DNA from: Sclerodactyla briareus
Taxonomy: Eukaryota > Echinodermata > Holothuroidea > Dendrochirotida > Sclerodactylidae
Direction: 5' to 3'
Length of the DNA stretch: 64,000 nucleotides
NCBI GenBank assembly: GCA_026419785.1
Contig: JAODTK010003555.1
Location: 1,240,001 to 1,304,000 of the forward strand
A program made the translations under genes and the position numbers. Under the pieces are notes generated by a model. The model did not search any database. It was not told the origin of the DNA and worked only from the letters and a program-made list of their open reading frames with translations. Shown piece after piece: positions 11,933 to 64,000 of the stretch; within the stretch, counting starts at the first letter, position 1, and every line of letters begins with the position of its first letter.

Positions 11933-11980
11933 TAATATATGTTTCAGGAGAGAAAAGATACTTTGCCTTAATTTATAAAT

Positions 11981-43505: not shown

Positions 43506-43866
43506 ACCGAGTGGTTGGCAACAATTGATAGCGCGAGGTTGCGCTTACACCATGGAGACCGGGTTCGATTCCCGGTAGGTTCATACCAAAGACTTTAAAA
43601 ATGGAATCTGCTACCTTCTCGCTGGACGCTCAGTATGAGGGATTGGAGCAGGGACAAATGAGGGGTAGGCAATTGCATGTCGCCATCTGTGTGTGATTAC
43701 CCCCACCCCACATTAAGGTAAAGCCAAAGAGGCATTGCCTCATTCCGTGTACTGGTGAAGATTAGAGACAATTTGGTGCAGTATCCAGGTCTGCACCCTT
43801 GCTGGGCCTTGAATAGAATTGATCCTCTGCTCAGCAAGTATACCATAAAAAAATATTTTTAAAAAC
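43506..43866 (+). mobile_element. tRNA-derived SINE, full-length copy
   Basis: The head contains a Pol III B-box-like ggttcgattcc near 43,563. It is followed by the family body: 'aggttcataccaaagac', 'aatggaatctgctacc', 'tctcgctgga', 'gccatctgtgtgtgattacc', 'cctcattccgtgtactggtg', 'ctctgctcagcaagtatacc'. It ends in an A-rich tail. Related copies lie at 57.15-57.49 kb (inverted), 57.77-58.08 kb and 58.33-58.5 kb. It has no protein product and would rely on LINE machinery for mobility. Confidence 0.88.
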
Positions 43867-44029
43867 AATATGCCTTAAGCTATATGCCTAAAATCCTCTG
43901 TACCCCAACCCCTTCTCCCTTGCAGCTGCCAGGGCCCCCGTTGGAACATTGGGCAATTTTTCCACTTCTGCTATTTTTTGGTCACTTATTTTGGCCCATT
44001 TGAGTCAAGTTGATTTGCTTGAATTAGGG

Positions 44030-44350
44030 GGTATGTATGATCCTTTTGTTCTAATATGATATGAAGCATTTTGGTTGATTATGAATTACGACCCGTGTCT
44101 CTATTATCATGTCCGAACCCTCTGTCCTATTATGATTGATAAACTTTTTTGCGACATTAGGAATAACCAACCCTTTGCTCTATTAGGATATCAAAGGTTT
44201 CCTTTTTTGCCCATTATGAATAACAAACCTCCATGAACAATGGAGGGCTTTTTCTCATTAAGAATAGTGAAACCTTATTAAGCAGTGAACCTTATGATGT
44301 TGAACCTTTTGAACAATTAACCCTATGAATGTAGAACTTTATTAATATCG
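44030..44350 (+). repeat. Quasi-periodic AT-rich degenerate repeat
   Basis: Words of the type 'cctttt..ctattatgaat' followed by 'aacc' recur every 40-60 bp ('gttctaatatgatatgaa', 'cctattatgattgat', 'gctctattaggatatc', 'cccattatgaataac'). Decay is strong. It looks like an old minisatellite. Confidence 0.5.
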
Positions 44351-46085
44351 GGCTGTTACCCCTACATCAAAAGAGCTCTACCGCTCACTCATTGTTTTTT
44401 AATGTTGTCATGGAGACCTTACTTCCCACATTTTATGAAAGAAAAAAACACATTTGTTATGTTATCAGTTTTGGGGCGCCGCAAAATTTGATGGGCCTCA
44501 CAAAAGCTATTTCCCAAGTTGGTAACTAGTGGGAAGGTGGGAGTTATATACACTTTGTGGAACAACTTGTATTTTTAACAGAAAATGAGCAAAAACATTT
44601 ACAGTTTTGAAGAATGTTCCAGTTCCAATCAATGAATTTTTCGCATACGTTTTATATAAAAATCTTGATCTTGATTTTAATAGCGATGTGGCGACCTGAG
44701 GTTCGAATTGTTTTCAATTAAAATTTCCTTTTTCCGAAAGTTTCCTCCTTTTACCTTCAAATTGTTGTATTCGGGGGTATGAAGTAGCAATATACTACTA
44801 TGTGGTAACATAATTTGTGATTTGCATTTCTTAACAGTTTTTGCTGGAGTTGCAGATCCTAACTGCTATCACTGGAAAACCAGGTGACAGAGATAAGGAG
44901 CAAAGAACTTGTTGATTTGATGTTGTCTCGTAATGTAGCGCAGGAATTTGAAATTTATTGGAAGGATTGGTGTTAGAAATCAATCCTATTATCACATTAT
45001 AGCTTCTCCACTTGTGATGTGCAAGGCCCTCCAAGTTACAGTTGATGTTTTACAAGATGAAGTTGAATGCATTATTGTTTTTTGTCTCACCTGAACTTTG
45101 TTAAAGAGAAGATACAGAGACATAGTGGGCACTGGTTGTGGTGTGTGTGGGTGTGGTCGTTGCTGTTGTATGTGCGGTCGATATCTCTTGAACCGTGGAA
45201 GCTGTCATGCCGAAACCTCTTTGTGGAGGTGTGCGGTGAAGAGTTGTCGATGTGCATCCACTTTCCGTCCCTAATTACTATACTCATTAGCATGAATTTG
45301 CATCTTTATGGAAATTGCACAGAAGCTTGTGTACAAGATATCTCTTGATCGGTAGATGTTATGGTGATTCGTTCAGCCTTATAACACTATGAAGTGGATA
45401 TTAACTGATCAGAGTTTTCCAACATTATATTTGCTAATTGAGTAGTCTAATTTGCCTATTTATGGCAATGTTTTAAAATCTGTTGATTTTTCATGACACT
45501 CTCGTTGGAGATGGTTTATTTATAGTACCGATAAATTTAACAGTAGAGACGAGGTCAACAGAGGTCATTTAATGAGACTATTTGCATTTAAGTAATCCCT
45601 TTGCATAATTTAGGCAGATTTTAAAGTTGGTTGAATTTCCATGAAACTTGGTGGAGATGTTCACTTTCAATCCTGATCAATTTGACAACATGTGCAAGGT
45701 ACTGGGGAGGTCATTTTACGTGACCTCCTTTGTCTAAATTATGCAATTTTTCCATTCAAAAGGACAATAACAATTGAAATGAGTGCAGTTAGGGTGTTCA
45801 TAGAAATTTGTCATTGTAGTTTCTGGATTCCATGGATCAAACAACATCTAATGACGAGGTTGACAGGTCAAAGAAATAAAAAATTAATTTTCAGATATGT
45901 GATAGAACTCTGTGCTACCTAGACGACACCAACTCCTCTTCGATCGATTACACCTGGTCTTCAAGTTACAAGGGGTCAAAGATTGGTTTTGATACCTTTT
46001 GAGCGATAGCATAGGGTGTGTATATCTGATTACATTATGCTTTTGGGGCTTGGCGCATCACATCGTGGAAAGCATTTTTCATGAA
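44351..46085. other. No recognisable gene
   Basis: AT-rich, with recurrent 'gaggtca'/'aggtcatt' words typical of dispersed non-coding repeats in the region. Short frames only. Confidence 0.5.
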
Positions 46086-46089
46086 AACC

Positions 46090-46400
46090 GTCTTGCCATC
46101 AAAGGTCATTCAAGGTCAACAAACTGCTAAATATTAACATTTTCTGCAACAACTTCTAGTGACGGTGTGCAATATGGCTGAAATCTTGGGACATTCTGCC
46201 TTTATAAGGAGTAACAAGTTCCATAACAACTGTTTGTCATCAATGTCATTCAAGGTCACTTATGGACCAAAACTGCCAAATAATAACATTTCCTGCAACA
46301 GCCTCTGAAGACTGTATGCAATATGGCTAATTTTTTTAGACATGGTACTTATATGCAATGGGAATATTTTTTAAAACTGTTATGTTTATCAAAGGTCATT
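46090..46400 (+). repeat. ~149-bp direct tandem duplication, about 2.1 copies
   Basis: 'atcaaaggtcattcaaggtca', 'actgctaaatattaacat', 'tttctgcaac' and 'gcaatatggct' recur in order. The anchor ctgc(t/c)aaat lies at 46,124 and 46,273. A third copy starts at about 46,387 and stops early. Confidence 0.75.
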
Positions 46401-47532
46401 CAATTATCAAAATCCTAATTGTGAGAAGAATTGACATGAGTAAAATATCCCCTACAAAACTCCATACCATTTTGCACCTCCTTGCAAGAACATGTTGATT
46501 CTCTAGCCAGTTACCCATTTCAGATGGGTCAGTCCTTTGGGATCCCCTACCTCAGCAGCACTATTAATAGCATGCTATTCATACAAGATGTTGTAGAACC
46601 TATCTATTGTGAAGTTTTACTCCTTTCAATTTTAAACCCCTCATGTATGTTAATTTTCATTCATTTTAACTAGTATTCCTATCTGTAACAGACAGAGGTT
46701 CCATTCATTGTCTTATTCATATCACTTTATTGGCATATGTGTTGGAAAAATGTAGAGGAACATGGTTGCTTTTGCCACAATTTCCAGTTTCATTGATATC
46801 CCTATATCACCTATATAGCCCCTATATAGCCTCAGGTCACCCAGTATATGTATACTGCAGAATCAATGTAGGGAGAGTTGCACCCTATGGTGCCAACAGA
46901 GGGTGTCAGTTACCCTGGCAAGAGAGGCGCCTAATTAGATGGCTTATTCCACTCCAGACAGGGGATGCTACAGGTAACTGTGAGATGGAGGGAGTGCAAG
47001 AGATGACTTGCATAATGCTGGGGCATAATCTTTTAGGTGATGTTGGGGATATATAGGACAAACTTTATTAGATTTCCGACCAGTACTCCACTATGACCTT
47101 GGTGGGACTAGGGTCCTGTTTATTATTTAGTTAACAAATACTTCCAGAATGGTTCTTGTAAGTTGAAGATATGTCCCTCATTTGCATATTTAGTCACATT
47201 TCCAATCAAATCTTATACTCCTTTGGTAGACATGGCAATCATCATTATTTATGAATTTGAAAATTGTCCACTAATGGTAAGCTAGCTGTTTCTTCTAAAT
47301 GCTAATACCCAAATATTTAAGCGACACATGGAATGAACTACAGTTGGTTTGCCATGGTGAACTGATGGAAAAAAACCACGATGCGCAACCAGGCGAGACA
47401 CTGGGGGTGATCGCCTTGTGTAATTGATTTAACAATTCAATCACATCCCATCTGGTTCCTTTCGTGGTTATGTCCTGTAAGGTTCACAATGGGCTGAAGC
47501 TGCAGCTTTTTTCTAGTGGGGGGTCCGCAGTA
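46401..47532. other. No gene identified upstream of the epoxide hydrolase
   Basis: This is where a first exon encoding the membrane anchor of an EPHX1-like protein would be expected. No convincing signal-anchor exon is recognised. A 108-codon frame at 46,730-47,056 has no family resemblance. Confidence 0.4.
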
Positions 47533-47813
47533 GTCCTTGGGACTTTATCTTGACTGGTGCCTCTCCCCCGAGCCCGGCCCGTCTCTGGACCCCGGAGAGG
47601 GCTGGTGGGCCAGAGAAGAGAAGGGTACCATTGAGGTTAATACGTCCATCAGACCCTTCCAAGGTTGAATTCCCCAGGGAAGCCCAGGGGGACTTGAAGA
47701 GACGTCTGCAGAACTCTCGTTACTTTGAGAGCCTTGAAGGGACCAACTGGGATAATGGCACAAGGGCAGATGTTAACGCGGAACGTTGTTGACTACTGGT
47801 TGAATAATTATAG
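47533..47813 (+). CDS. Epoxide hydrolase exon A (N-terminal domain)
   Basis: The donor is 'tatag|gtgagc' at 47,813/47,814. The acceptor is probably the ag at 47,531-47,532, since the frame reaches a TAG just upstream. Recognisable blocks are EGWWA, TIEVNTSIRPF, KVEFPREAQGDLKRRLQNSR, YFESLEGTNWDNGTRAD and RNVVDYWLNNY. The frame breaks twice: one extra base at about 47,658-47,661, between RPF and KVEF, and a net two-base loss near 47,770, before RNVVDYW. The residues on both sides are conserved, so the breaks are recent or artefactual. Confidence 0.85.
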
Positions 47814-50800
47814 GTGAGCAACTGTCATACTGGTGAAATTTCATGGTCATGGGACAAATTTGTCATCAACTGGCAGAGGTGGAGGAAAATCCCCACACTC
47901 CCATATGGGATGGTATAGCCTAGCCCTAGCCCAGCCTAACCTAACCACCCCAGCACAATCTGTCTCAATTCTAAATGATTCTTTACATACTTCAACACAT
48001 CATTCTTGAATTAGTGGTATATTGGGGTTTCTTGTTCTGCTTAGCCTTGGCTTCGTTGTCTATGTATAAATGTATATAATAATAACAATAATCCCGCATG
48101 CCTACAGTATACATTGCTTTCCAATGTCATAGACCTTCTCAAAGTGCTTTAACAGATATCACCCTGATCACAGGTACGTTACGCTCTCCGACAATCCCGG
48201 CGAGTATAAGTTGCTGCCACTGTAGGCGCAGATTGTACTCAAATTCCTCACCGGTGCCCATTATCGCCTGGGTGGGTGTGAGGCAAATGGAAACAAAGTA
48301 CCTTGCCCAAGGGTATACCGCAAAAGTTGATCGGTCTCCGGGATTCAAACTCGCAACCTTTTGATCACCAGTCCAAAGCTTTACCAACCAAGGCTAATCC
48401 AATCTCCATCAAGCTCACCTATTAAACTGATATTTGAACTGACTTCTTTGCTCAGATCATTTGATTTGTTATCACGCTATGTGCCTGCTCGCAATTGAGA
48501 TCCATGCCTTGACATTACTACCCATAACGGCCTTCCATATTCCTATGTCAACTATGTAATTGGGGGAGCGCCACTCAACATGACAATCGCCGCAACAAGA
48601 GCCTGGAACGCACCTAACCTGACTATCATAACTCGCTCCATCTATCAACACCTTTAAGAGTCAACTCAAAAAAACGTACTTATTACTTGAGTGGCTCATC
48701 TTCTTGCTTTACTGTATTTGCGATTCTTGTTTAAATACTCCCTCCAACTTTGGTCCATTCTTGTAACCCCCGCTGTGACTGTGTACTTTTCCCTTGGTAG
48801 ATGGCATTCTAAAAACTGCCTTTTGTAATATTTTTCATTTTTCATAGACTTTACAAATTAAATAGTTCCAACTCGCATCATGATATAGCAAAAGTTGGGA
48901 GTAATTTGCCCAAACGAGGTTATTAGATTTCTTCTCTCCTACCATGTGTTTTTTTTTTTTCAGATAATTGAGGATGGGTAGATGTTTGAATAGATTTCAA
49001 ATATAAACTCTCTCTCCTCATACCTGGACTGAATCGTTCACTACTCACATTGAACTAGTAACAAATTTAAGCATTTCGTCTGATAGTCTGCCTCTAGTAA
49101 TGCCCTCAATCAGGACTACCGCACACTAGCTTTGTAAGTTCGATTGTCCTATGTGTATTTTTTTGGCATCTCGGACTACTGTCTATATGTAAATTTTTTA
49201 TGCCTTGACTATGAAAAGCTTACTAATAGACCCTGACACTAATCTGAACTGCGTGTCCAAGCAAAAATTGGGGGAAACCACTTGCCATAGCACTTCCCAG
49301 AGGAGCATTATGTACTTGCCATTTGTTTTCAATTTGAAGGCTATTTCACTACGATTTTTCCTGCTTTTCCTCTTCATTTGGGAGAAACAGGAGATGGTAT
49401 TCAACCCCAATACAACCACTTCAAGACCAACATCGAGGGCATTGATGTACACTTTGTACATTGTCAAGCCAAAGGTCAAGGAGGTCAAAAGGTCAAAACC
49501 ATACTGATGGTCCATGGGTGGCCAGGTCATCTATGACTTCTACCAGGTATATTTGATATAGTATCACTGCATGTGAACTTTTCCCCTTCTAATGTTTGTA
49601 ATTTTACCAATAATCTTGTAAATTTCACTTCTTCTAGAAGGGTGGTGTGTGTAAGTGTTCAGTCATTCTGGAGGACAACGGTAATCATGGATTCGAGAGG
49701 TTACATGGTCCGCGAACCCCAAAACATCAACTATGTTCCTAATAGAGTCATTAGTCTTCATGTTTGGGTTTATTAGGGCAAGGAAATAGGGAGAATCCCT
49801 ATTGTACAATATTTATTGCTTGATGTCACAGTTGAACACACGTTAATTATGTTATGTTTTTCAGTGTTTCATTTTGTTTGAATGAATCAAACAACACTGA
49901 CCTGCTTGGTGCTATTTTGGAGGACATTCCTCCCATCCCTGGTAGTTTTAGTCACTCAACAATTAGCGATCATGCTGAATCTCCACACAGAAAAAAACCC
50001 AAATACATTAACCCTCAACATGTACAGTAACTATAACTCAAGATTACCATGCCCAATTGCTAGCTTCTGCCGTTGGGGGGGGGGGGGGGGGAAAGGAATA
50101 AAAGGGGAGGACAGCAGGGATAAAGCTCATATACACTCCATACAAGAGTGGTGACAATTCCTTTCTCCACGTCCAAGTAATAAATCACAATTCAACTGGA
50201 TCTATTTTCCACTACTCAACTTACCACCCCATATTCCACTTTGGCACCCCACCCCACAGCCATTGAACATCTGCAATCTTTTACAGTAGTCCGGCTGGCA
50301 ACCCTATCTTCCTTCTTATTTTGCCAGTTGAACGTTTAGTTCATGAGCAGCTTGGCCTAAGAATTTCATCAATTTTTCCTCGCCGAAAATCACCCAATCG
50401 CTTTCAATGGCTTTTGTCAGAATCTTTCTAGGAAGTCATTATCTCCGATGTCGTCTATCAGGAGATAAGGTTATCTTGCGGTTTGCGTGATTTTGGGTTT
50501 GGATTTTTTCTCCTCCCGCTCGATCCCCGTTTTGCGTAAGTCCATATTTAGCCTAGGCTGTTCCTAGCACCATAGGGTTGGTTCATGGCTTCTCCTCCCC
50601 CGTAGCCTAACCACGCCTGGTGTGTGGGCTCCGTCTTGTGTTGGTTCAAGTAGGGGCTGGCCTGTTGTCCCGGGTGGCTTTCCCCTAGCTGGCCCCCCCC
50701 CCCTCCCTCCCTCCCTTCTTGGGTTTTTTTTCCACCCTTGCTCCCTTCCCTGTCCTTTTCTCCCGGGGTGTCTCTCTCCGCACGCAGGCGCTAGGGAAGT

Positions 50801-53800
50801 TTTACGCAAGACGGGTGAGAGCGTGGGAATGGGGATACTTTGTGTCGTTAACTTGGCTTGGACTGTTCTAAGTTACCTCGTCTTTTTTTTTCTACGCAAG
50901 TTCGTTACCCCGGCTGATATTTTGGTATTTTGTATAATCCTTCTACTGCAATACAACACTTGTACTATGACATATCGCATAGCATGTAGAAAGTGATTCC
51001 TATTGTGATATTGTTATTGTATATCATTCGGGAGGCGGTATACTCCTGATGGATTTTTTCCGTAGCGGGAGTTCCTTCAATACGTGTGAAAGTGTTGTGT
51101 CGGCTACCGCCTTCCTGCCATTCGCTACCTGGACCGAGGAACGCTGGGAGGCGCCGCCATGTCTACGAAGACTACCTACCGACAGCAGGAAAGGCCCAGT
51201 GATAGGGTGGCGGCGCTCGAAGAATAGGGACGTCCCAGGGGGGACTATACCCCTGGACTTCGAGCTTGGCCCTTCGGGGGCCCGTGGGCAGATGCTCGTT
51301 AGCTCTGTGAGTCCCACAGGCTCTGGGTCAGCCTGAACCCTAAAGCCGCTGGACACACACAGCCCCTGGTTGTCCTCGCACGTCGAGAGGCCGGCTCTGC
51401 CGGCCATCTCCTCGGCGCCGGGCCCGAAACGGGGTGTCGTTACCCCTCGGACGCCGCGGAGGTCTTGGTCGCCAGCCGACTTTGAAGTCGGGGCCGGTCC
51501 GAACGGGGTGTCGTTACACCTCGGGACGGTCCAGAGGGTCCCGACAAGCAAGGTCGGGGCCGGCCCATCCGGGTCCTAATGGGGGGTTGTTCAACTCGGG
51601 ACGGCCGAGGTCCCGACAATCCAAGCAAGGTCGGGGCCGGCCCTAGCCCAGGTCCGTTGGGGTGTGGTTCCACCTCGGGACGGCCCAGAGGTCCGCCAAG
51701 TAGGGTCGTGACCGGTCGCCGCGGCCGCGATCTGGCTGCACCGGTACGGCTCAGGCATCAGGCCAGCGCCAGGGATTCGATCCAGCCCACAGGCACAGCA
51801 TATATCGGTGCGAGGCAGTCCGTCCGAACAGGCGTAGCGCCGGGAGTCTCCTTCGTCAGGCATTGCGACTCCCAAGTGGAGCAGGCGAAGCTATTACCCT
51901 GCCGTAGAGTCCTCCGGGGTCGGATGGACAGCATCCTTGTTAGCGTGCCGTTGATCCCCGATCAAACTAGAAGCGAGACTTAACGCTGGCGGTGTTGTTT
52001 CGGCGAGGGGACTTCGTTTACCAGGTCCATGCATCGCCAGAGACTGTTCTCGGTCCTCTGGGCTCCGACATAGTTTACGACTTTCGGGACAGACTTGGCT
52101 ACGCCGTCGCTATATGAGTAACTCTATCGCGTTCGTGGGTCCTGGTGGCCCTCCTCATTCTTGGCCAGCCTGTCAGACTTCCAGCACGGGTGACTTAAGG
52201 CTGCACGGACATCGCACGGGGCCTAGTGGCCAGCCCCGTTTCGGTAGATTCCAGCCATCCTCGCGGGCCGGGGCCCTCCTCGCGGGATATTCCGAAAAAA
52301 CATGGGCTAGCGGGACTGTACAAAATTAAGTCCCCCGGGAGGAGCCCGACTTGAAAGGAGTCTTCCACCGCAGGTCTACGTCAGGACCGTCTATATCCTC
52401 CTCACCTAGACTAGGGAGCCGCTCTGGTCAGCGGCGGCGGGGTTTGCTGCGGCCGCCCATGAGCGCCGTCCCTGCCAGATTCAGATATCTTCAAAGAAAA
52501 ATCAGCGGGCCTCACGGAGGCCACTGTTGCTGGAGGACTACTCGTGTTCGCAGGCTAATGGACTCCTATCAGCCTGCCCCCCCCACCCTGGCGGAGGGCC
52601 ATCGGGGTGGAGTGCGGCTCTAACTACCCTACTACAGTACACAGCCGTTGCCAGTCGGGGACCGGGCCGTATTTCCGGTAGGGTCGGGCTTCCCCGCGTA
52701 CTGCTACCGGGGGAGAGACTAGCAGTTGGGGCTACCTGCCCCCTCGGATTCTTACCAGGCGTCCCCTTCCCTCTCGCTCACCTCCGTAGCCGAGACACTA
52801 CGGGCTCAGCCTACATAGTCAGCTTCCTGAGAGGCGGGGGGACTCACAACAGGACGGCCGAAATAGGGCTGCTGGAATTTCTCTGGCGGACTACGGCCTA
52901 GCCTTGTTGGCCTTCTAGGACCTAGTAGAGCCAGCCCTGGCCGACGTCCCCGTCTTCTGCCGAGTCAGGTCTCACCCGCTCCTCTGCCGTCTACTATGTG
53001 GACCCCCCATCCTTACTTGGCACAGTCCATCCCTTCATTTGACCGCTTTTCCCCCGCAAGCCAGTAACGTCGCTCGATCGACCCAGCCCTTTTCACTGAG
53101 AGACAGAACCGTACGGCCCATTTACGGAGCCGGCTCACTCCCGAGATAAACCGTTCTCTCTGCAGGCGTCGACTCGTGGACCCCATGGCTTACTTGACGC
53201 AGTCATCACCCTTCACGTCGGACGTGCTTTCCCCGAAGCCACAGGTTCGCTCGAGTCGCGCCCTCCGTTCGCTGAGCGACAGAACCAATCGCCGGGCCCA
53301 ATTACGGAGCACCCGGCTCGCCCGAGGTAGCCGTGCTCTCTCAGCCGGCCCTATTACAGGACCGGGCAATGCCGGCCTCCACTGACAGCGGGTGCCCGGT
53401 GGGTGGGGTGTTCCTTTTCCCCCCAGCCTGGACTTGTCTCCCCCCTAGAGCCTTCACCAGAGACTCCAGAGCCGTGAACCCGTCTCCTCCGTCCTTCCCC
53501 ACCGGGTCTCTGGCCCTCCAGAGCCGTGAATCGTCTCTTCCGGCCATCCCTATCCCAGCCTTGGTCGACCTCTCCCGATTCTCCGGAGCTGTTGGTTGAC
53601 TTCTTCGCCCCTCCTGATTTAGATGGCTCTCCGAGCCAAGGGTCTGTCCTCCCGGTTCTCCAGATCTGGTCTGACTCTATCCGCCACCTGGCTAGACGTG
53701 GCTTTTCCCGGGCCGATGGTTGAGCTCTCCCGGAACTCCTTCCCCTCCGGAGCCTTATCCGACTTCTCTGAACTCTCCTGAGCTGATTGACCCCCTGAGC

Positions 53801-56800
53801 CTCGGTTCGACCTTCCGTCTCTCTGGAGCCGCGACCGACTCTCACGCCAATCCGAAGCCAGCTCGTGCTTGCAATACCCGGATCCCGACTCTTCCTGCCC
53901 TCCTGTGTGAGGCTCGGACCTGCCGACTCACAAGAGCAGGTGGTCAGACTCTTCCTGCGGCTCCATGTTAATCGGCTCTACCAAGCCGAGGATCGAGCCT
54001 GCCGACTCCCTAGAGCATTGTCCGACTCGTCCTGTGCCGTCTCCCCTGACATCGATCCCCTGGGATCGGTGTTTCATCCCGAGCTTCTTAGCCGTAGTCA
54101 ACTCTTCCCTGGCCCTCCAGTGGTGCGGGTCGGCCCTATCGAGCCTAGGATCGGGCCTGCCGCTCTCCAGAGCGTGGTCCGACTCTTTTCTCTTCGCCCT
54201 CCTAGCCAGTTCGACTCCCCGAGCCGGGGGTGGGCTCACCCGTGTTCCGACTCTATATGCCGTCCTGGGCAGATCGGTACTCCCAACCTACCTAGCTCTT
54301 TTCGACATCCAAGCCACAGGTCACCTTTTTTTCGAAACGGTGGGTCTACCCCACTGCGGCCAGCATCCGTGTGTCCGACACTCCAGGCCAGCTCGGCTCT
54401 CTCGAGCCAGCGGCCGACTCCCGGTCAGCTCTTTGAAGCGTGGGTCGAACCGAACCAGGACCGCCTATGTCAGTCCACAAGCCGGATCGGCTCTCCGGGT
54501 CCGTGGGTCAGGTCCCACACGTTGAAGACTTACCTCTTCACCCGTCGGAATTCTATCCGCGGTTGGAGGGGCCTAACGCGGTGTCCGGTGGGCGGGCACG
54601 GCGCTGGTACTGGGGGCACGAAGTTCTTTCGTCAACGCATTCAACTGTTGCTTCCTGTGTATTCAGCTTTTCTCTCCGGGATCGAAGGCTTTCTCATTCC
54701 GTGAGATAGAGAGCCTCGCAAGTCGCATATCTCTGAGTCAGGGTTCCGCTCGGGTTCCTATGGGCTCTACTTCCGTTGCACACGAGCCTGGAGAGTCGCC
54801 CTCCTCGTTCCCCCCTCCCCCCCCGCCAACCTTTCTTCGCGAGACGTATACGAGCTCTATAGAGTTGACCCACACGAATGTCGTTTTCATGCTGCGTCTC
54901 CAACATTCTCGGGCCTAGCCGGCCACGAACACGCTTCTTTCGCGCGATGGTATGCGTGCGTCTGTAGGGTTGACCACACGACGTTCATTTCATGCTGTTT
55001 CTCCAGCACAGTCTCTCGGCCTAGCTGTTCGAGCTACGCTTCTCCCCACGAGATGGTTGCCGAGCGTCGGTAGGTTGGCCACACGGCGTTCGTTTCATGC
55101 TGCTTCTCCAACTGAGTCTCGGCCTAGCCAGCTCGAGGTACGCTTCTCCGCGAGACAATTTATGCGAGTGTCTGTAGGTTTGACCACACAACGTTCGTTT
55201 CATGCTGCTTCTCCAACTCAGTCTCGGCCTAGCCAACACGAGGGCTGCTCTACATCTACTAGCAACCAACAACCAACCCCTGATCGTGACTGCACGGACC
55301 CGCCTCCGGTGGCCCTGTGCTAGTCTGGTGCAAAGTGCAATATGGGGTAAGTTAAGTTAGTGAAATATATTTCACAAAACTTACTGGTTTGTGATCTGTG
55401 AACTACGAATACTTACCCCATATTGGATGTACCCACCCTACCCTCCCCACTTCCGGGCCATCACGGGGCGTCCTCCTTCGTCGGATCGTGGGCCTTCGCC
55501 CCTCATCCCTTGGACGCCTCTTCCTATCACAATAGAAAGGACGCTAGGGTTGCCAGCCCGGTCTACTGTAAAAGATTGCCAGATGTTCAATGGCACGGGG
55601 TGGGGTGCAAAGTGCAATATGGGTTTAGTATTCGTAGTTCCAGATTCACAAACCCTTAAGTTTTGTGTTCTATTCCAAGTCGCAAGTCAATTTGAGGAGT
55701 GCAAGTCCATGTCACAGGTCAGGCATTCTTGGTACAAGTCCAAGTCAAGTCTCAAGCCCCCTTAAGAAAGTCACAGGTCAGTAGGACCCTGAGGAGCACA
55801 GTATGGCATTACACCGTACTACTATGACATTGTGTGCCGGGAGGAAACAGTTTGGACTAGGCACAACTGTGTTACATCTGTAATCTGTGGAGCAGTGATG
55901 ATGGTATTCACGGGCCTCAATAGAAGATTGTAAGTAGACTGATATGGAAAGATGGGGTTCCAGAGCAAATTGGGGGGTTCTAAAGTTCCATTCAGCCTTT
56001 GGAATATTCAAGAAAATAAGCATCAATGATATTGAAAATGAATGCCATCATTCGATACCTCAGCTACAGGAAGAACTTCAGTCAAAATTATAGCTGGAAC
56101 ATATTCTACGAAATTACAAATTTTCACCTGATACTATCGTTCCAACAGATTTTGTAGTTTTTATATCAGTCAATACAATAGATAACTACAGTATGGGTAG
56201 CCGCATGGCTGGAATGGAGGATGTGAAATAAAGGCTGAATGAAATTTTAATATATAATTAAGCCCGCCCTTCAGCACGCTGTCAAAACACTCATGGTGAA
56301 AATATGTATGGAGGCCCACATTAAAGTTGGGGGTCATGTCACCCCTACCCCCCCCCCCCAGTGGCTGCACTCTCGCTGTGTTAGCCCTAGCCAACCCCCA
56401 GTGCATAGTACATCTTACTGTAGTTGTCCAACTGACCATGGGTCTAGGTTGATAATAATTTCTGTTGTTACTGCTCTTTCAGATCATACCGATGCTAACT
56501 GACCCAGCCAGTCATGGTGGTACTGAAACGATGTGTTTGAAGTTATCTGTCCATCACTTCCTGGGTATGGTTTCTCTGAAGCATCACATAGACCAGGTAT
56601 TTTATGTGTCTCTGTCTGTCCGTCTACCCATCAGTTTATATGTCTGTTAACTGACCCAACCAATTGTCTGGTTCTGAAGGCAATTTATTTGAATTTTGAA
56701 GTCATCTGTCTGTCTTTTCTTTGATGCCCTTTTTTAGAAGCAGTACACAGACCAGTTAGGTTATGTGTCACTGTCTGTCTGTCCATATACCGGTCTGTCT

Positions 56801-59480
56801 ATTTGTCTGTTAACTGACCCAGCCAGTCATGGTGGTACTGTGGGCAATTTATTGTCCATCTCTTACTGGACATGTTTCTCTGAGCAGAATATGCTGCTAC
56901 ATACATTGCTTTTTTTTCTCTTTGAAGCACCAATCATGTCACACTGAGACTGCTAGTGCACACAGTTGGTGTTCAATAAATTAAATCTCTCATTGCCTTT
57001 ATTTTTGTGTTGTAATACTGCTTTGATTGGTGCTTGTACTCATACACTAAATGATGATGCTTATGCTCTTTAAAAAACCTGCTCACAGGACTAACTACAC
57101 AAGACGCTTTGTTGGAAACAGATCATGGATTAGCTATTAAAAATGTCCTATGGTGTACTTGCCGAGCAGAGGATCGATCCTATTCAAGGCCCAGCAAGGG
57201 TGCAGACCTGGAAACTGCACCTTATTGTCAGCTGCGAATCCTTCACCAGGATCACGGAATAAGGCAATGCCTCTTTGGCAATACCTTAACTGTGGGCTGG
57301 GGTAATCAAACCAGACGTCAAATTGGCCTACCCTCGTTTGTCCCTGCTCCAATCCCTTGAGCTGAGGGTCCAGCGAGAAGGCAACTGGTTCCATTTTTAA
57401 GGTCTTTGGTATGACCCACCGGGAATCGAACGCTGGTCTCCCAGGTAGAAGGCCGACGCTCTACCAATTGTGCCAACCACTCGGTTACAAAAATAATGGT
57501 AGTGCAGTGAGAAAGCATGAGCTGAATGGATAGCCGTTTATGAACAACCAAAGCTTCCGGAACAGGACTAGTTTGTTTATTCCTGACCTCAGCAAGCTGT
57601 AACATTACCAAATGAAGGTCACCAAAACCTTTAAAAATGCAGCAAGCCCACACACTTTCAAAACACAAGTACAACTCTTCAACCATTCAAATCAAAGATT
57701 TGATAGATATATATCCTAAAAAAATGAATAATTAGCCTTCAATCTATCTGGTAGATTCTAGGACTAAGTGATTGGTGACTGAGTGATTAGTAGAGCATCG
57801 GCCTCCTACCCGGGAGACGGAGGTTTGATTCCCAGTCGGGTCATACCAAAGACCTTCAAAATGGAACCTGCTGCCTTCTCACTGGGATCTCAGCCCAGTG
57901 ATTGGAGCATGTCCAACGAGGGGTTGGCAATTTGCAAGTTGCCATCTGTGTGTGATTACCCCCCCCCCACATTGAGGGACTGGCAAAGGCATTACCTTAT
58001 TCTGTGTACTTGGTGAAGAAATCGCAGCTGGTTTAATCCACTGCTCGGCGAGTATGCCCTAAAAAAAAAAAAAAAGGCCAACTAGTTGGTACATTATGCA
58101 ATACACTCAGATCATTCCGTATGTATCACAGGGCTATCACCGCACTGCATAACAAATTTTCCTCACTTTTCACTAGGACTCAATGTAATGCAAATGGCCA
58201 GAATGTTCAACACTCTGATGAACAAACGCCTCGGATTTGAGACCTACTACGTACAAGGTGGCGATTTTGGAGCTACAGTGGTAGAAGCAATGGCTCTTTT
58301 CTTCCCAGAGTGAGTTTAAATATATCCCTTGGTAGAGCTTCAGCCGAACCCCGTAGATCGGGGTTCAAATCCCCATCGGGTCATACCAAAGACACTACAA
58401 AATGGTACCTTCTCGCTGGGTGCTTAACACAAGAGATTGGGGCAGGGAAGGAAAATGATGATCAAGCAGCACTGGCCCCGACTTCAGCAGGTGGGCTCGA
58501 GCCAAGGTGTCCTTCCTATCTGCAACACAAGTGGTGTCTGGAAATATTATGATTTCAGGTGTGTAGCCCCTGCCCTTGTCTCTGCTGCCATCAGAAACTT
58601 AATGCGCTTGCAAGATCTCTTCAATACTTCATCCTATTGACCCAAAACACGGTACATATGTTTGCCCATACAGAAATCTTGGAAAGGTTCAAAGGTGGAT
58701 GTTCCCACTTGACTGGGGCCCTCTAATTTGCATAATTTGTTTCAAGTTTGTCTGATTTATACGGAAGTTAATGGATGTAGACTCCATTTGGTCTTGACAG
58801 TAGTGGAGGTCATGCTAAGGGCATCAGAGGTCAAATTTGCATACTTTATGCGATAAAGTAAGTTAGATGTCACCAGGGGTCCTTTGATTGCAGAGATATA
58901 GTGTTTGCGCTGCAATCCCTAGTTATCTCATCGGTCCCGAAGGGCCGGATGAGATTTTGCTTTGTAAAGTGTCACTGATACTGGTGTAGAAAGACCAAGT
59001 AGCTCATGGTTGGCGCAGCTTGGTTGGCACAGCTCGTGATTTTACTCAGGGAGTTGGGGGATGGGTTTCTCCCAGACCCGGCCACTTATCTGAAGAAGGC
59101 TACGTGCAGAGCAGCGATAGGGGGGTTCCAGGAGGGGAACATGTGCCACTATTAAGCCTTCCCCCCCCCCCCTGTTGGGGACCGATTTGAGGAACTGAAT
59201 CGAATGGTACAAACGTGAAACAGAAATGGTGCATAATCTGTCCTACTTGTTTGCTTCTGTCTGTCCTCATGCAGATTCGTCCGAGGTCACCACACTAACT
59301 TCCTGGCGGTCACCCCCCCTCTGTTACCCCTACGGCTGCTCATCGGACATCTTTTCCCCGAGTGGTCCTACCCCAGGATCGAGGACCGGAGGCTGTTTTC
59401 CCCCGTCACTGAGATGCTGAGTTCATTGATGAAGGAGACCGGATATACTCACATACAAGCAACAAAACCAGACACAATCG
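47533..59480 (+). CDS. Microsomal / juvenile-hormone epoxide hydrolase, EPHX1-like, 3'-incomplete
   Basis: Five exons (A 47,533-47,813; B ~49,385-49,546; C 56,483-56,596; D 58,177-58,309; E 59,275-59,480) encode an alpha/beta-hydrolase-fold epoxide hydrolase. Members of this family sit on the endoplasmic reticulum membrane and open epoxides to trans-diols through an ester intermediate on Asp. In order the sequence shows the EGWW and TSIRPF N-terminal motifs, the YFESLEGTNW cap region, YNHFKTNIEG, the oxyanion-hole HGWPG, the nucleophile loop GGDFG, and the conserved TGYTHIQATKPDTI. The membrane-anchor exon is not recognised upstream. The exons with the catalytic acid and histidine are missing downstream. 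Exons A, B and C need 1-2-nt frame corrections; D and E are clean. It may be a real gene in error-prone sequence or a young pseudogene. Repeats fill its introns. Confidence 0.88.
47814..49384. other. Intron A-B
   Basis: About 1.57 kb containing a decayed SINE (48,165-48,400). Otherwise AT-rich sequence without coding signal. Confidence 0.6.
48165..48400 (-). mobile_element. tRNA-derived SINE (second family) in intron A-B
   Basis: On the minus strand a tRNA-like head carries a B-box-like gagtttgaatcc near 48,344-48,355. It is preceded by 'ggttggtaaagctttggactgg'-like sequence. The body contains 'cttgcccaaggg', 'ctgggtgggtgtgaggca' and 'acaatcccggcgagtata'. Related to the relic at 8.54-8.76 kb and distinct from the 43.5-kb family. 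Confidence 0.65.
49385..49546 (+). CDS. Epoxide hydrolase exon B (oxyanion hole)
   Basis: Encodes KQEMVFN, then QYNHFKTNIEGIDVHFVHCQ, a Gly/Lys-rich linker, KTILMVHGWPG and IYDFYQ, ending at 'taccag|gtatat'. HGWPG (49,513-49,527) supplies the oxyanion-hole backbone in this family. Two frame breaks occur: one base short in the C run at about 49,404-49,407, and a two-base loss at about 49,527, directly after HGWPG. The acceptor is uncertain: the only nearby AG is in 'ttgggag', but conservation (a Trp-Glu before KQE) suggests the exon starts a few bases earlier. Confidence 0.85.
49547..50200. other. Intron B-C, 5' part
   Basis: AT-rich, with a G run at 50,076-50,091. No coding signal. The large TIR-bounded block follows. 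Confidence 0.5.
50227..50314 (+). repeat. Left terminal inverted repeat of the 5.4-kb element
   Basis: Aligns to the reverse complement of 55,535-55,623 with about ten differences, mostly single-base gaps. The upstream 'tattttccactactcaactta' (about 50,203-50,225) also resembles, inverted, the palindromic module at 55,347-55,384, so the terminal region may be longer than 88 bp. Confidence 0.8.
51380..51722 (+). repeat. ~66-77-bp GC-rich tandem array, four copies
   Basis: The anchor gtcggggccggcc recurs at about 51,487, 51,553, 51,630 and 51,705 (last copy degenerate). Each is linked to 'ggggtgtcgttacacctcggg' and 'acggcccagaggtcc'-type words. Both strands stay open over part of it, so the reading frames there are by-products of composition. 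Confidence 0.75.
52960..53355 (+). repeat. ~190-bp tandem duplication in the 5.4-kb element
   Basis: Two copies share 'gtggaccccccat..cttacttg', 'gcacagtccatc', 'gagcgacagaacc', 'ggcccaatttacggagc', 'ccggctc' and 'cgttctctc' in the same order. The second copy is slightly shorter. Confidence 0.65.
53400..54540 (+). repeat. Degenerate pyrimidine-rich short-period repeats
   Basis: Words such as 'gactcttcc', 'ctctccagagc', 'gatcgggcctgcc' and 'cgactccc.gagcc' recur every 60-100 bp. The 279-codon + frame (53,865-54,704) and its antisense frames run through this array. Their Ser/Pro/Arg-rich translations look compositional, not like a protein family. Confidence 0.5.
54858..55245 (+). repeat. 105-bp tandem array, four copies, in frame
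   Basis: 'catgctg' recurs at 54,888, 54,991, 55,096 and 55,201 (steps 103, 105, 105). Each unit contains 'gttgaccacacgacgttc', 'tttcatgctgcttctccaac', 'ctcggcctagcc', 'gctacgcttctcc' and 'gcgag'. The 105-nt period equals 35 codons, so a + strand frame (54,952-55,323) encodes three repeats with the core TTRRSFHAASPTQSRPSQ. Whether it is translated is unknown. Confidence 0.8.
55327..55425. repeat. Palindromic terminal module
   Basis: The perfect 16-bp palindrome gtgaaatatatttcac at 55,360-55,375 is flanked by gtaagtta... and ...aacttac, giving a potential hairpin of about 38 nt. 'ggtgcaaagtgcaatatggg' lies just upstream, and its relative 'tacttaccccatattg' lies inverted just downstream (to 55,424). 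Confidence 0.75.
55535..55623 (-). repeat. Right terminal inverted repeat of the 5.4-kb element
   Basis: The reverse complement matches 50,227-50,314. Just outside, 'tagtattcgtagttccag' and '..cacaaac' (to about 55,653) again mirror the inverted motif at 55,388-55,424. Confidence 0.8.
55654..56482. other. Intron B-C, 3' part
   Basis: Starts with caagtc-rich direct repeats (55,675-55,770). It then becomes AT-rich with a C run at 56,349-56,359, and ends in the pyrimidine-rich tract and cag acceptor of exon C. Confidence 0.55.
56483..56596 (+). CDS. Epoxide hydrolase exon C
   Basis: Acceptor 'tgctctttcag' and donor 'gaccag|gtattt'. Encodes IIPMLTDPASHGGT and then, after a one-base frame break at about 56,527-56,530 (probably a lost A in 'gaaac'), DVFEVICPSLPGYGFSEA followed by SHRPG across the splice. 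These are the two most conserved segments after the oxyanion hole in EPHX1-type enzymes. The donor phase fits exon D exactly. Confidence 0.88.
56640..56900 (+). pseudogene. Two decayed tandem copies of exon C
   Basis: Downstream of the real exon the same sequence recurs. 'ctgaccca' anchors lie at 56,499 (exon), 56,651 and 56,814. Copy 2 retains 'tttgaagtcatctgtctgtc', 'gatgccc', 'agaagca' and 'cacagaccag'. Copy 3 retains 'ctgacccagccagtcatggtggtact' (in two parts) and 'catgtttctctgagca'. The repeat unit (152 and 163 bp) includes the start of the intron ('ttatgtgtcactgtctgtctg'). Both copies have internal stops and lost splice signals, so they are dead exon duplications within the intron. Confidence 0.8.
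56901..57145. other. Intron C-D spacer
   Basis: AT-rich; no coding signal. Confidence 0.5.
57147..57486 (-). mobile_element. tRNA-derived SINE, inverted copy in intron C-D
   Basis: The reverse complement matches the 43.5-kb SINE from its tRNA-like head (B-box-like ggttcgattcccgg read from about 57,432 downward) to 'cggcaagtacaccatagg' at its 3' end. It contains the same 'accaaagacctt', 'aatggaaccagttgcc' and 'ttgctgggccttgaatagg' words. Confidence 0.88.
57770..58078 (+). mobile_element. tRNA-derived SINE, direct copy in intron C-D
   Basis: The tRNA-like head has B-box-like ggtttgattcc near 57,822. The body follows the family consensus (tcataccaaagaccttcaaa, gccatctgtgtgtgattacc, tctgtgtacttggtgaag) and ends in 'cggcgagtatgcccta' plus a 15-A tail. 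Confidence 0.88.
58177..58309 (+). CDS. Epoxide hydrolase exon D (catalytic nucleophile)
   Basis: Acceptor 'cttttcactag' and donor 'ccaga|gtgagt'. The uninterrupted translation is GLNVMQMARMFNTLMNKR, then LGFETYYVQGGDFGATVVEA, then MALFFP. The Asp codon at 58,263-58,265 corresponds to the nucleophile that forms the covalent ester intermediate. The usual family motif is GGDWG; here Phe replaces Trp. Phases match exons C and E without correction, which supports a functional origin. Confidence 0.92.
58325..58550 (+). mobile_element. SINE fragment adjacent to exon D donor
   Basis: 'ttggtagagcttcagccgaa' begins about 16 bp after the exon D splice donor and leads into the tRNA-like B-box ggttcaaatcccc and the family words 'gggtcataccaaagac' and 'aatggtaccttctcgctggg'. 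It then diverges, and the 3' part and A-tail of the family are missing. Confidence 0.75.
58551..59274. other. Intron D-E
   Basis: AT-rich, then a C run at 59,161-59,172. It ends in the 'tctgtctgtcctcatgcag' acceptor. No coding signal. Confidence 0.6.
59275..59480 (+). CDS. Epoxide hydrolase exon E
   Basis: Acceptor 'cctcatgcag' and donor 'acaatcg|gtcagt'. One clean frame reads FVRGHHTNFLAVTP, then a leucine-rich helix (LLPLRLLIGHLFPEW), then IEDRRLFSPVTEMLSSLMKE, then TGYTHIQATKPDTI. The last block is a strong family hallmark. The next exon would carry the SPVGLAAY-type segment, which I cannot find between 59,481 and 64,000. Confidence 0.9.
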
Positions 59481-62310
59481 GTCAGTGTTTTTGGACACTG
59501 CATGGGTATGATACAGTGTGTCGAGCATGGTGGCTGAGACTCCTTGCTGGCACATGTCATTCTATACACACTATTTATCAATCCAGTTCAACATTAATTA
59601 GCTCTTTGGCTCCTCGATTTTCCTGTTTTGGTGAATGTCCACCAATCTTGGACAACAACGTCATAAGGGCTGTCAATTACCATTTAGTCTGTTCAATGTT
59701 TAAACGGTAGTATTAAACGTTCATTCAGCGTTTAAATGGCTGGAACGTCAGCATAACAGATTTGCATATTGCCTAGGTGTTCATGACTGTCATAATCAGA
59801 TCCTAGACTATAAACAACTAAGTACTTTTTACCCATGCCCTCTTTCCTATGTCATAGAATTCAGAAATGATCACTTCTTTCATGTTTGCAAAAATCCAAT
59901 TCTATCGCAGATTTTATCAAGATAATTCCCACCCAGACAATTCCACTGGACAATGCCCTCAAGGGAATGTTTTTTTGTGCGTCATTGAATTAGGGTTAGG
60001 GTCTAAAGTTAGGGTCAAGTTTGGGTGGGAATTGTTTGGGTGGGAGTTGTCCGGGAACCGCTAGATATTGCCCAATTGCTGCAGAAGAGCTTCTCCTGAT
60101 GAATGCTCGCAAACTCAACTCAACTTTTCACTCTGGAAGTTCATTTTGAATGGGCCTCAGATTAGTTAAGCCGTTTCAAGTATCCCACGGTCAAGGGTGC
60201 AAAACTCCAATATTCACTCAGACAGCAGCCCTGGTCAGTGCTTCCCTGAGTTTCCCATTCACAACCAAAAGAAGAGAAAGTCGGGCCGGGGGGTGATGGC
60301 CTACGAGCATTGTTGAAATGTGACTGTGCGCGTAGGCCGATGTGTGTTCAACCATTAAATCGATGTCAACGAAAGAAGTCTGTAGCCCCCGATTTTCAAT
60401 TGTCTACTCTGCAGCGCCGCCCGGTGTTGTCAGAATATATCAGTATATGGTCAACAATTGTCGGTTGCAAGATTTATTCAAAGATTCTACTAGCAACCTG
60501 AATAAACTAAAATTGCTCCCATATACCACACCAGCATGATCAAGCCACCCAACCTAATTACCGCGCAGGTGCTGTAAATACCTCTAACTATGTGATGATA
60601 TTATGTAGTGTAATGCACAAAGGAAAGTCAGGCTTTAGTGCAGTCTGGTGTAGCTTGCACGCATTTGCCTGGCAGTAGGACCACGTGGGCAGACCTGGTT
60701 TTGTGTATAGAACATGTGCTTGACTTGCATGTATAGAGCATGTGGGTAATCAACAGCATAGCCAATTTGCATATTAGATTGCTGAAACAGTGAAATGTAT
60801 ATAGCTTCCTATTGCTCTAGGACTTTTGTTTTCTGAATGGAGAATGCCCATTCAACATATTATACGGTTGAAGTGTTGATTAGATTGTGTAAACCAACTG
60901 AATGAAGGGTAATGGCCTGTCATTATCACAAAAACCAAGGGCTCCACGGCTACCAATGCATACCTGCTTAGGAAAACATTAGGAAGATGACCTGTTTCCT
61001 TGATAGTTGAGTGGGGAGGAGATTATTGGAAGCGGGAAGTCGACTAACAACCATGACAGTGGAAAGTGGGGGGGACGGGGGCAGCCTGGAATGGAGGGCT
61101 GCAGCAGGTTCAAGAGAAGAAGGGGGAGATGGGCACCAGCCAAAGCGGGGGGCAGTCATATTAGTGGAACACGAGTGAAAAAGAGGCACAGATCGCCCGC
61201 AAAATGTGACCAGGCACACAACACGCAACCCCCCCCCCCCTCATGACACAGGCAAGACGACGGCGCAGAGAAAGCAGAAAAAAAGGAACAGAACGGCCAG
61301 GTAGGGGGTGGCAGCAAAGATAAATAGTAGACAAAAAGCAAGCAGTCAGGAAAAGCACACCAAAAAATGTCAGCGAACAAAAGTGAATTTGCTCTGGAAT
61401 AAATAAGAGACACACGTGATTGAAGCTCATTCAAAGAGAACAGAGGAAATCATCTAAATGTGTAGACGTGACAGCCCTAATGATTATTGAAGGCACGTTC
61501 CTCCTCGACCACTTGAAAGTCGGAGTCAAAGGCCAACGAGGGGCATTTGAGCCATTATGTAAAAAAATAGCAGAATATATTCTCTCCTACAAATTCAATT
61601 GGATTGGACATAGTTTGTCAGTAGTATCATCGACTAGTGGTCCTTATTGGGGTGTTCATGAATTTTGTTCAAAGGTCATTTAGGCATCATGTTTTGTACT
61701 TGTGACAGTTAAAGTCAAACTAGTTTCTCAGAAAATTGGAAATGTGTTGTAAAGTCAAAGTGACTTTCGAAACTGCAAGAATGGTGGCCAAGGCGCTGTG
61801 CTGGATATCTGCTATTGGGGAAAGCAAGGAATTTCCTAACACACTATGTCTTAGACACTATGGTCGTTGCCAATATTATCCACAGTGTTTCTCCTCACAC
61901 ATTTGAGTAGATAGCCATATTGGTTTGTTAGAGGCCAATAGTCATGTGAATAGGAATTTACCAGATGACCCAATTCAAGCCAATTCGAGTGTAACGATCA
62001 GGCACCAATAAGCTATATTGCAAATTGCCTTGTGACATCACAAAAATACAGGATCCCCATGATACAACAGGCAATGTGAAACATGCACTTTTAAGAATCG
62101 TGTGCCAAACAAACTGTACAAAGTATAGATGGAATCTGAATAAAAACCTACAAAATTCTTGACAAGATATCAAAGAATAATCTCACTAATTTCTGAGTAA
62201 ATACTTTTTTACGTTTCCCGGAATTACTCAGAAGCAAATTTAAATATCCCGTAGGGGCAATGTGCCAGAATCAGAATATAGATATAGTTGAACCAGCACA
62301 ATTGTTGTAA
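59481..62310. other. Downstream intron or 3' region, no coding block recognised
   Basis: Contains a short foldback (59,922-60,053), a G-rich patch (61,065-61,085) and a C run at 61,230-61,239. Frames such as 61,420-61,683 (87 codons) have no recognised product. It probably belongs to a long intron of the epoxide hydrolase, if the gene continues past the window. Confidence 0.45.
59922..60053. repeat. Short foldback element
   Basis: Left arm 'aattcccacccagacaattcc' (about 59,924-59,944) pairs with right arm 'gggaattgtttgggtggga' and its partial duplicate (about 60,022-60,050), with a ~75-bp loop. It may be a small MITE relic. The loop contains two TTAGGG-like words that are not telomeric in length. 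Confidence 0.6.
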
Positions 62311-62319
62311 ATTTCAAAG

Positions 62320-63458
62320 CCTTATTATCTTCTTGGACTTACAGAAAACCTTTGACAAAGTTCCCCATAAACGCCTGTTGCTCAAATTGTAGAGTTTTGG
62401 TATTGACGGGAATGTCCTCAGGTGGATTCAAGGGTGGCTCCATGACAGGAAACACGGGTTTTTATAACGTTTGTGCTCCACTTGGCAGAAGGCCACTAGT
62501 GGCGTTCCACAGGGATCGGTTCTTGGACCCTTACTGTTTCTGACTTACATTAACAATCTTGATAATTCAGTGCAATCCAGAGTGAAAAAGTTTGCAGACG
62601 ACACAAAAGTTTTTAAAGCCCGAATAGGTGTTTTTGCGTCAGACGATGCTTTTTTATAATTGGTTCAACAATGATCTTGACCTGATTTCCAAGTGGTCTT
62701 CTGATTGGCAGATGTTTTCCAACGCTGGCAAGTGTAAAGTAATGCATTTGGTTTCCCAAAATAGTAATGCCTCATTCAGTTTGACTGGTCGGGATATTCA
62801 GGTGGTGGACCGGAAAAAAAAGATATGGTGTGTGATTCGAGGCCTCGTTGAAACCTTTAAGCAGTGTGCTGAAGCTGCAAGGAAAGGAAATTGGATTCTT
62901 GGTCTGATAAAGCAGCATTTCACTTCCTTGGATGAGGATATAGTTCTCAGACTATTCAAGCAACTAGTGAGACCTCACCTCGAGTATTCAGTCCGAGTGT
63001 GGAACCCTCATTTCGTGAAAAATAAGCAGGAGATTTCCCATACAAGGAAAGACTCAGGCGTCTTGGGCTAAATTCAATGGAGCTGAGGCGGGTTCGGGGT
63101 GATTTGATCCAGGTCTTCGAAATTGTCCATAGACTTGATGGTTTGGCATGCGATAACTTTTTGAGTTTCCAATGTGACTACTACTCGTGGGCACCACCTC
63201 AAGCTTCGAGGTACCGCTGTAGATAGGATCTTCGGAAACACTTCTTTTCACAGAGAGTCATCAATGAGTGTGAATAGCCTTCCGGAAAATGTTGTTATGT
63301 CTAGTAGTGTGAATGCCTTCAAGACTCCCTTGATTTATTCTTCAAAAATTGTGGGCGAATTATGTATCTTCTGGGTCATTTGCATTTTTGGGATTGTGGT
63401 TTCAGGGTCGCTCATGAGGACTATATCCTTCCTGACCCTTCTCACTAAACTGAACTAA
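62320..63458 (+). pseudogene. 5'-truncated non-LTR retrotransposon reverse transcriptase
   Basis: Starts inside the reverse-transcriptase domain with LDLQKTFDKVPHKRLLLKL (62,333-62,388), then GIDGNVLRWIQGWLHDRKHG, GVPQGSVLGPLLF (62,501-62,539) and the intact catalytic FADDTKVF (from 62,591). The thumb and C-terminal blocks follow: WSSDWQMFSNAGKCKVMHL, CAEAARKGNWILGLIKQHF, LRLFKQLVRPHLEYSVRVWN, RVRGDLIQVFEIV-type sequence, and SLPENVVMSSSVNAFKTPL. Several frameshifts and a stop interrupt the frame. Domain order matches the CR1/jockey class. It differs clearly from the 13.5-kb and 27-30 kb elements, so it is a third family. Confidence 0.88.
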
Positions 63459-64000
63459 TGCAAACCATGCCTTCACAATCCTTCCCACCACTGTACAGGT
63501 TTAGGCTACTTCACCATTGCTGCTCTAGTTTCAAACTATATCGTGCAAACATAGCAGCCCTGTTTCTACTGTGACATTTGTAGGTGGAATTTTTGTTCAG
63601 TCTAATTCAGAGAATGATGGGGCCAGTCACATTACAACAACATTGTGTTGTGCATTGGTCTGATGGTTTAGGCTGAATAAAAAACTATACTTTTTATCGT
63701 ATGGTTGATTGCAATCCGACACATTGATAAGGAGCTCGATTTGCTCTTTGCCAAATCATCCCGATGTTGACTGGCCCTTTCCTAAGTTATCACGTATTTT
63801 CTACTTAACATTGAGCTAAACCATTTATTGTACAATTGTTTTTTCTTTCCGATATGACATCACCCAATTTTGAGAAAGTAATGGGATGGTAGTCTAGTAA
63901 GTATGATATCATGGGCCCCCTTCTTTCTTGTTCAACCTGAAAAGATAGAACGATCGCAGAAAGACATAAAATCGTTATAGGATAACCAACTCTTAACTTT
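63459..64000. other. No recognisable gene
   Basis: AT-rich sequence after the retrotransposon, possibly including its 3' untranslated region. No clear tail repeat or coding block to the window edge. Confidence 0.45.

Follow-up and report, generated by a model that had tools for sequence, protein, structure and literature searches.

Positions 50179–55674 of a 64-kb window of the genome of the holothurian Sclerodactyla briareus (contig JAODTK010003555.1; the window is the whole 64,000-nucleotide stretch that was analysed, and all positions refer to it) hold a transposon-like insertion that is real and, though unusual in build, belongs to a general kind already known. We explain it, tentatively and with slightly less than even confidence, as a composite non-autonomous DNA transposon that was inserted as one unit via its outer ends and consists of a GC-rich element, A, and a foldback miniature inverted-repeat transposable element (MITE), B. 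The ends, element B and the candidate target-site duplication (TSD) are located as follows.

Positions 50172–50178, forward strand: left copy of the candidate TSD, TCCAAGT (6–7 bp), an exact match to 55674–55680 that abuts the alignment edge.
Positions 50179–50332, forward strand: left end E1, with outer part X (50179–50227), core Y (50228–50323) and a weak inner extension, in gapped alignment to 55674–55521; X matches E3.
Positions 55327–55397, reverse strand, facing right: inner end E3, a possible right end of the large element A.
Positions 55364–55443, forward strand, facing left: inner end E4, the probable left end of B, with 55364–55397 common to E3.
Positions 55364–55674, no strand assigned: element B, a 311-bp foldback MITE-like unit with arms at 55373–55425 and 55615–55667.
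Positions 55521–55674, reverse strand: right end E2, with core Y (55528–55623) and outer part X, which closes both B and the whole unit on the right.
Positions 55674–55680, forward strand: right copy of the candidate TSD (55675–55680 if it is 6 bp, in which case 55674 is part of the element).

The core inverted pair at 50228–50323 and 55623–55528 was identical in 85 of 98 alignment columns (E = 2e-20 when 50000–56000 was searched against the 64-kb window), with mismatches comprising 2 transitions, 7 transversions and 4 single-base gaps. A core pattern had exactly 2 occurrences, the average over 100 shuffles being 0. Gapped local alignment extended the inverted match outward to 50179–50332 and 55521–55674, or 154 bp per side, with a full-length E1–E2 score, including the core, of 147 (300 shuffles reached 39 at best), and with aligned outer ends that begin AATA. 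An earlier sequence-only reading had proposed two inverted termini of about 88 bp at 50227–55623; the inverted pair was confirmed, whereas its boundary is better placed at 50179–55674 and the ends number four copies, not two. The core supplies the terminal inverted repeats (TIRs) expected of a non-autonomous TIR DNA transposon, with the outer ~50 bp weak. The outer ends gave no match at E < 0.1 in the window beyond the unit, and within it the only further matches were the inner copies at 55327–55425.

Directly outside both alignment edges stands the direct repeat CCAAGT, which becomes TCCAAGT when the final T of the right arm is included. Among 20,000 random pairs of window positions, a 6-bp match at the edges arose 5 times with fixed edges, 115 times with ±2 bp of slack and 233 times with ±3 bp; using the real, CAAGTC-rich right end with random left positions gave 6, 118 and 230 per 20,000, respectively. 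Because the left motif is matched over 8 bp at 55738–55745 as well and the right flank contains five copies of CAAGTC in ~70 bp, a TSD is plausible but unproven, and we treat the 6–7-bp repeat as a candidate from a single locus.

Just inside the right end lies a second pair of ends, arranged outer-to-outer (55327–55443). Neither this inner pair nor the 311-bp foldback figured in the earlier reading, and together they make a simple one-element reading doubtful. E3 aligned with 50203–50248 of the left outer end across 47 columns at 81%, and E4 matched the right outer end, along the arms of B, at 83% over 53 bp. Full-length scores were 93 for E2–E4, 65 for E3–E4, and 62 for both E1–E3 and E2–E3 (best of 300 shuffles 47, 40, 35 and 41, respectively), with the E1–E4 score of 41 not significant (best shuffle, 53). 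When only the outer parts were compared, using 500 shuffles, E2–E4 scored 65 (best shuffle 32), E3–E4 38 (34), in part owing to a palindrome in the DNA common to E3 and E4, E1–E3 32 (31) and E2–E3 28 (27); E1–E4 scored 24, with 29 of the 500 shuffles as good. Judged by these alignments, E4 clearly pairs with E2, and E3 leans to E1 without a sharp preference. Of the core, the outermost ~20 bp are repeated in E3 and ~9 bp in E4. A strong E2–E4 match, a marginal E1–E3 match and outer parts of E1 and E2 that are not significantly alike fit a fusion of A to B, and outer boundaries held in common and flanked by the direct repeat suggest that the fused pair inserted as a unit. Apparent homology on the inner side of E3 and E4, part of the E3–E4 alignment, was dropped, as 302 of 1,000 shuffles were as good when it was taken alone.

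Element B is both short (311 bp) and self-complementary, as a MITE should be. Its predicted fold as single-stranded DNA had an energy of −72.9 kcal/mol compared to a shuffle mean of −34.3 (z = −9.9, 0 of 100 shuffles), as would be expected of a foldback MITE. No second B was found in the window, and by eye no matching direct repeat adjoins its inner edge. A comparison of B's interior with the GC-rich block was not used; shuffles did as well in 17 of 200 cases in the same orientation and in 101 of 200 when reversed.

The DNA between the ends differs sharply in composition from its surroundings. G+C content was 0.612 at 51061–55320 versus 0.396 at 44001–50172 and 0.434 at 55681–64000, which bears out the earlier claim of an enclosed block far richer in G+C than the DNA around it. 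That the whole enclosed block is GC-rich held for 51061–55320 but not for the ~730 bp that follow the left end, which are moderate at 0.48. The observed-to-expected (o/e) CpG ratio was 0.88 in the block and 0.74 in the left interior, versus 0.42 and 0.46 in the same left and right surroundings (500-bp windows, 28 surrounding versus 8 block; Mann–Whitney p = 2.6e-7), and the 77 bp separating E4 from E2 had 0.95 (8 CpGs). Both G+C and CpG shift near the inner edges of the inverted ends. Retention of CpG amid CpG-poor surroundings would reflect either late arrival of the block or its being kept unmethylated. Gene-body methylation, known in many invertebrates, would fit the CpG depletion around it.

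The interior also contains tandem arrays. We ran a gapped self-comparison of the block in overlapping 120-bp windows, taking local-composition shuffles at the 99.5% level as the null. Of 85 windows, 33 exceeded this level, with 32 inside four regions and 1 outside (54413–54532), in keeping with the earlier count of at least four arrays; Tandem Repeats Finder (TRF) detected two of the four (periods 77 and 105). None of the interior features was assigned a strand.

Positions 50333–51060: left interior, G+C 0.48, CpG o/e 0.74 (728 bp), no tandem array found.
Positions 51061–55320: GC-rich interior, G+C 0.61, CpG o/e 0.88, no recognised coding.
Positions 51412–51755: tandem array 1, period ~77 bp, found by TRF and self-comparison.
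Positions 52927–53386: tandem array 2, period ~176 bp, fewer than three copies, 65–72% alike, found by self-comparison.
Positions 53513–54284: degenerate array 3, ~154-bp and other lags, 62–74% alike, found by self-comparison.
Positions 54814–55250: tandem array 4, period ~104 bp, about four copies, found by TRF and self-comparison.

In six frames of 50350–55330, with stops kept as X, no Pfam family matched at E ≤ 1, a null that should be read with the HMMER filters in mind, as these discard most matches above ~0.1. This agrees with the absence of a recognised transposase from the sequence-only reading, and its proposal of a non-autonomous element fits the inverted ends, the candidate 6–7-bp duplication and the lack of recognised coding. 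No Rfam match was found up to E = 5 in 50000–56000, nor was there any match at gathering score, or any tRNA, in the whole window; an RNA gene, or a ribosomal DNA (rDNA) spacer with rRNA edges, was rejected on the lack of an Rfam match.

In the composite that we favour, a large GC-rich element A without recognised coding, running from 50179 to ~55397, would be joined tail-to-tail to B (55364–55674), a small foldback MITE of the same family in the opposite direction. The two would have a short palindromic tip in common, each carrying the full core at its outer end. A and B may once have been separate, and the fused pair would then have transposed as one unit using the outer ends. A transposase encoded elsewhere would act in trans, binding the ends and cutting at the AATA tips, and insertion with a 6–7-bp stagger would produce the TSD. 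The arrays probably grew by ordinary tandem duplication, most likely through slippage and unequal exchange.

Several observations weigh against this explanation. The outermost ~50 bp of E1 and E2 have no significant likeness on their own (score 18, with 120 of 500 shuffles as good), so the figure of 154 bp combines the core with an extension that is weak. The unit is present in one copy within the 64-kb window, and its direct repeat is short, with a right flank rich in CAAGTC. Cores that differ by 13% also speak against insertion having been very recent, unless the two ends were unlike beforehand. The CpG o/e ratios of the ends are 0.19 and 0.54, based on just 1 and 4 CpGs, and the ratio is 0.80 in positions 1–44000, so that of the block is unusual only relative to adjacent DNA. 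Three-base periodicity exceeded 2 in 3 of 15 block windows (2.44, 2.60 and 2.94, compared to 2.20 for a known exon and a window 95th percentile of 2.17); we tentatively put this down to tandem arrays 1, 3 and 4, which those windows overlap. Other inverted repeats in the window are also spaced by kilobases and are plainly not element ends (43506–43899 and 57102–57485). The assignment of E3 to A is weak, with E1–E3 barely above its shuffles, E2–E3 also above all 500, and the full-length scores tied at 62. Finally, the inner core part was absent from E3 and E4 (four comparisons, 426 to 774 of 1,000 shuffles as good) and so, by these alignments, is confined to one end of each proposed element.

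That E3 resembles both outer ends about equally weakens the composite and strengthens its close alternative, a single TIR element with 154-bp ends whose inner pair would have arisen by duplication within the element or by acquisition of an extra end, as in the multi-TIR Mutator-like elements (MULEs) of plants. We consider this unlikely. It would account for the outer cores being 85/98 alike while the inner core part is absent from the inner ends, for the outer boundaries held in common with a direct repeat, and for the equal full-length match of E3 to both outer ends, and MULEs with extra internal TIRs are described in the available text of one source (PMC3310237). It does not readily explain why the outer parts of E1 and E2 are not significantly alike when those of E2 and E4 are strongly so, or why B folds as a complete unit.

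The composition shifts near the inner edges of the ends, the 6–7-bp direct repeat adjoining both outer edges, and the left end (50150–50350), which in the window matched only E2 and E3 at E < 0.1, all speak against a third explanation. Here two dispersed MITE copies in opposite orientation flank by chance a GC-rich minisatellite island that grew in place, and the 5.5-kb element never moved. The other inverted dispersed repeats kilobases apart in the window, the 13% core difference, the MITE-like character of B alone and a block CpG ratio resembling that of the first 44 kb are what one would see if this were so, and we likewise hold it to be improbable.

A protein-coding block was rejected, as its longest stop-free frame of 301 codons is within the shuffle range (11 of 200 shuffles were equally long) and the periodic windows coincide with arrays 1, 3 and 4. 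A search of phages and plasmids with 50200–55700 (blastn) gave no match, such collections not being expected to include animal nuclear DNA. The core pattern was found 0 times in viral_contigs and 0 times in genome_contigs, where animal nuclear DNA is likewise not expected, giving the counts little bearing on host copy number; two further patterns were also found 0 times in viral_contigs, with the same expectation. For the longest stop-free frame, genome_contigs yielded 91 pattern-matching stretches, none confirmed by tblastn. A repeat string had no literature match, and among the literature matches listed there was no element with this combination of features, a prior description being possible.

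The unit lies in an intron of ~6.9 kb (49547–56482) of a gene on the forward strand, with the upstream exon ending at 49546 and the next starting at 56483 by eye. The upstream exon carries part of the epoxide hydrolase N-terminal domain EHN (Pfam, E = 4.5e-10), and its best relative of solved structure is a juvenile hormone epoxide hydrolase (4qla, E = 9e-9). The interrupted gene thus looks like an animal epoxide hydrolase, which fits the earlier placement of the element in an intron of such a gene. In the exons at 49381–49546 and 56483–56596, apparent short deletions in homopolymer runs, seen by eye, break the frame, reflecting either assembly noise or a decaying gene copy; later exons near 58170–58312 and 59275–59482 have open frames. 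The exon at 56483 with its 3′ flank (56479–56689) resembles two diverged stretches directly downstream, 56631–56853 and 56808–56883. Given the homopolymer deletions, gaps of a single base here may be artefacts of assembly, which weakens both dating from core divergence and claims of broken frames.

Such deletions, which suggest that the assembly is perhaps noisy, and the abrupt change in composition would also be seen if the intron held foreign or misassembled DNA, such as a GC-rich contaminant, a virus or an rDNA spacer. We consider this highly improbable, given inverted ends on both sides plus a direct repeat, no recognised coding, no Rfam RNA, no phage or plasmid match, and a longest stop-free frame without a confirmed relative in genome_contigs.

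Measured against known classes, the unit has its arrays between the TIRs, whereas Foldback elements have long TIRs that contain tandem repeats. Mutator-like elements have TSDs of 8–11 bp, mostly 9 bp. The direct repeat here is at most 7 bp, provided the edges are right, and the Pfam search in six frames revealed neither a Mutator-like transposase nor a captured gene fragment, non-coding capture being possible. Polinton/Maverick elements have a 6-bp TSD, long TIRs with AG termini, and polymerase, integrase and capsid genes; they were rejected because only the TSD length fits, with aligned ends that begin AATA and no Pfam match. Dada elements, for which the available text of one source gives a 6–7-bp TSD, insertion in small RNA genes, and U6 and U1 families without TIRs (PMC3706591), were rejected because the unit has inverted ends and neither an Rfam match at gathering score nor a tRNA was found in the window. 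TSDs are given as 7 bp for Galileo (PMC3573991, in its available text) and 8 bp for P elements, compared to the 6 or 7 bp of the direct repeat in the unit, in which no P-type transposase was recognised. With one copy, no named superfamily is assignable.

Four described systems share parts of this architecture, as far as the accessible portions of their descriptions go. Tetris and its MITE relative DAIBAM, foldback elements of the Drosophila virilis group, are like the unit in being non-coding, with inverted ends, tandem repeats and a MITE that has the ends of a long element (PMC4079207). The repeats of Tetris (~220 bp) are part of its long TIRs, which reach 1735 bp, and its TSDs are 8–10 bp (PMC4079207), whereas the unit has four unrelated GC-rich arrays between shorter TIRs, a candidate TSD of 6–7 bp and a MITE that adjoins the long element. 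Galileo, of the P superfamily in Drosophila, resembles the unit in its 7-bp TSDs, variable TIRs, tandem repeats and chimeric copies with TIRs of two subfamilies, but it carries its repeats within the TIR (F group) and the 7-mers flanking its chimeric copies do not match (PMC3573991), whereas those of the unit do and no transposase was found in it. Multi-TIR MULEs and Pack-MULEs of plants also have extra end copies, with GC-rich cargo preferred in rice and maize Pack-MULEs, but their extra ends are mostly in tandem (PMC3310237), whereas those of the unit are outer-to-outer and no captured gene fragment was found in it. The Tm1 Mutator/Foldback family of Meloidogyne has composite TIRs and both MITE-like and longer members, and differs in TSDs that are mostly 9 bp, ~14-bp repeats in its TIRs and a known member with a putative transposase (PMC3169594). 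These systems appear to show the ingredients separately, and none, as described in those portions, combines the TSD length, the place of the arrays and the outer-to-outer ends.

The window contains further repeats. One dispersed family occurs in both orientations at 43506–43899, 57102–57485, 57767–58019 and 58348–58448, and includes a large imperfect palindrome at 57229–58030. An 829-bp self-complementary stretch at 11542–12370, 72% identical to its own reverse complement and with diverged partial copies at 38135–38509, is perhaps a foldback-like element. A direct duplication of ~3.2 kb (31311–34565 and 33809–37005; diverged, 78%) is offset by ~2.5 kb and contains poly-C/G runs, and a satellite-like array at 4045–7190 has a period of ~160 bp, with 324 bp as an alternative. 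At 21462–21996, a 102-bp repeat is present in about five copies (92% matches) in a 222-codon open frame of lysine-rich repeats with no Pfam match, and at 29487–29921 on the reverse strand is an endonuclease-reverse transcriptase fragment, probably of a long interspersed nuclear element (LINE; PF14529, E = 2.9e-5, under the curated cut-off).

A single copy makes the unit a lead, and no finding about a family. In a bolder version that we regard as distinctly improbable, a gene-less composite of two divergent members of the same family, joined tail-to-tail, would use its outer ends to spread a GC-rich mosaic of unrelated minisatellites that stays CpG-intact amid CpG-depleted DNA, seeding GC-rich satellite islands in introns. 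A tail-to-tail fusion of a long element with a MITE would be a route by which long TIR units with heterogeneous ends originate, and the CpG contrast could flag insertions in gene regions depleted of CpG. Should the unit move, it would be a vehicle bringing GC-rich minisatellite DNA into introns, a link between transposons and the birth of satellites like that described for Tetris.

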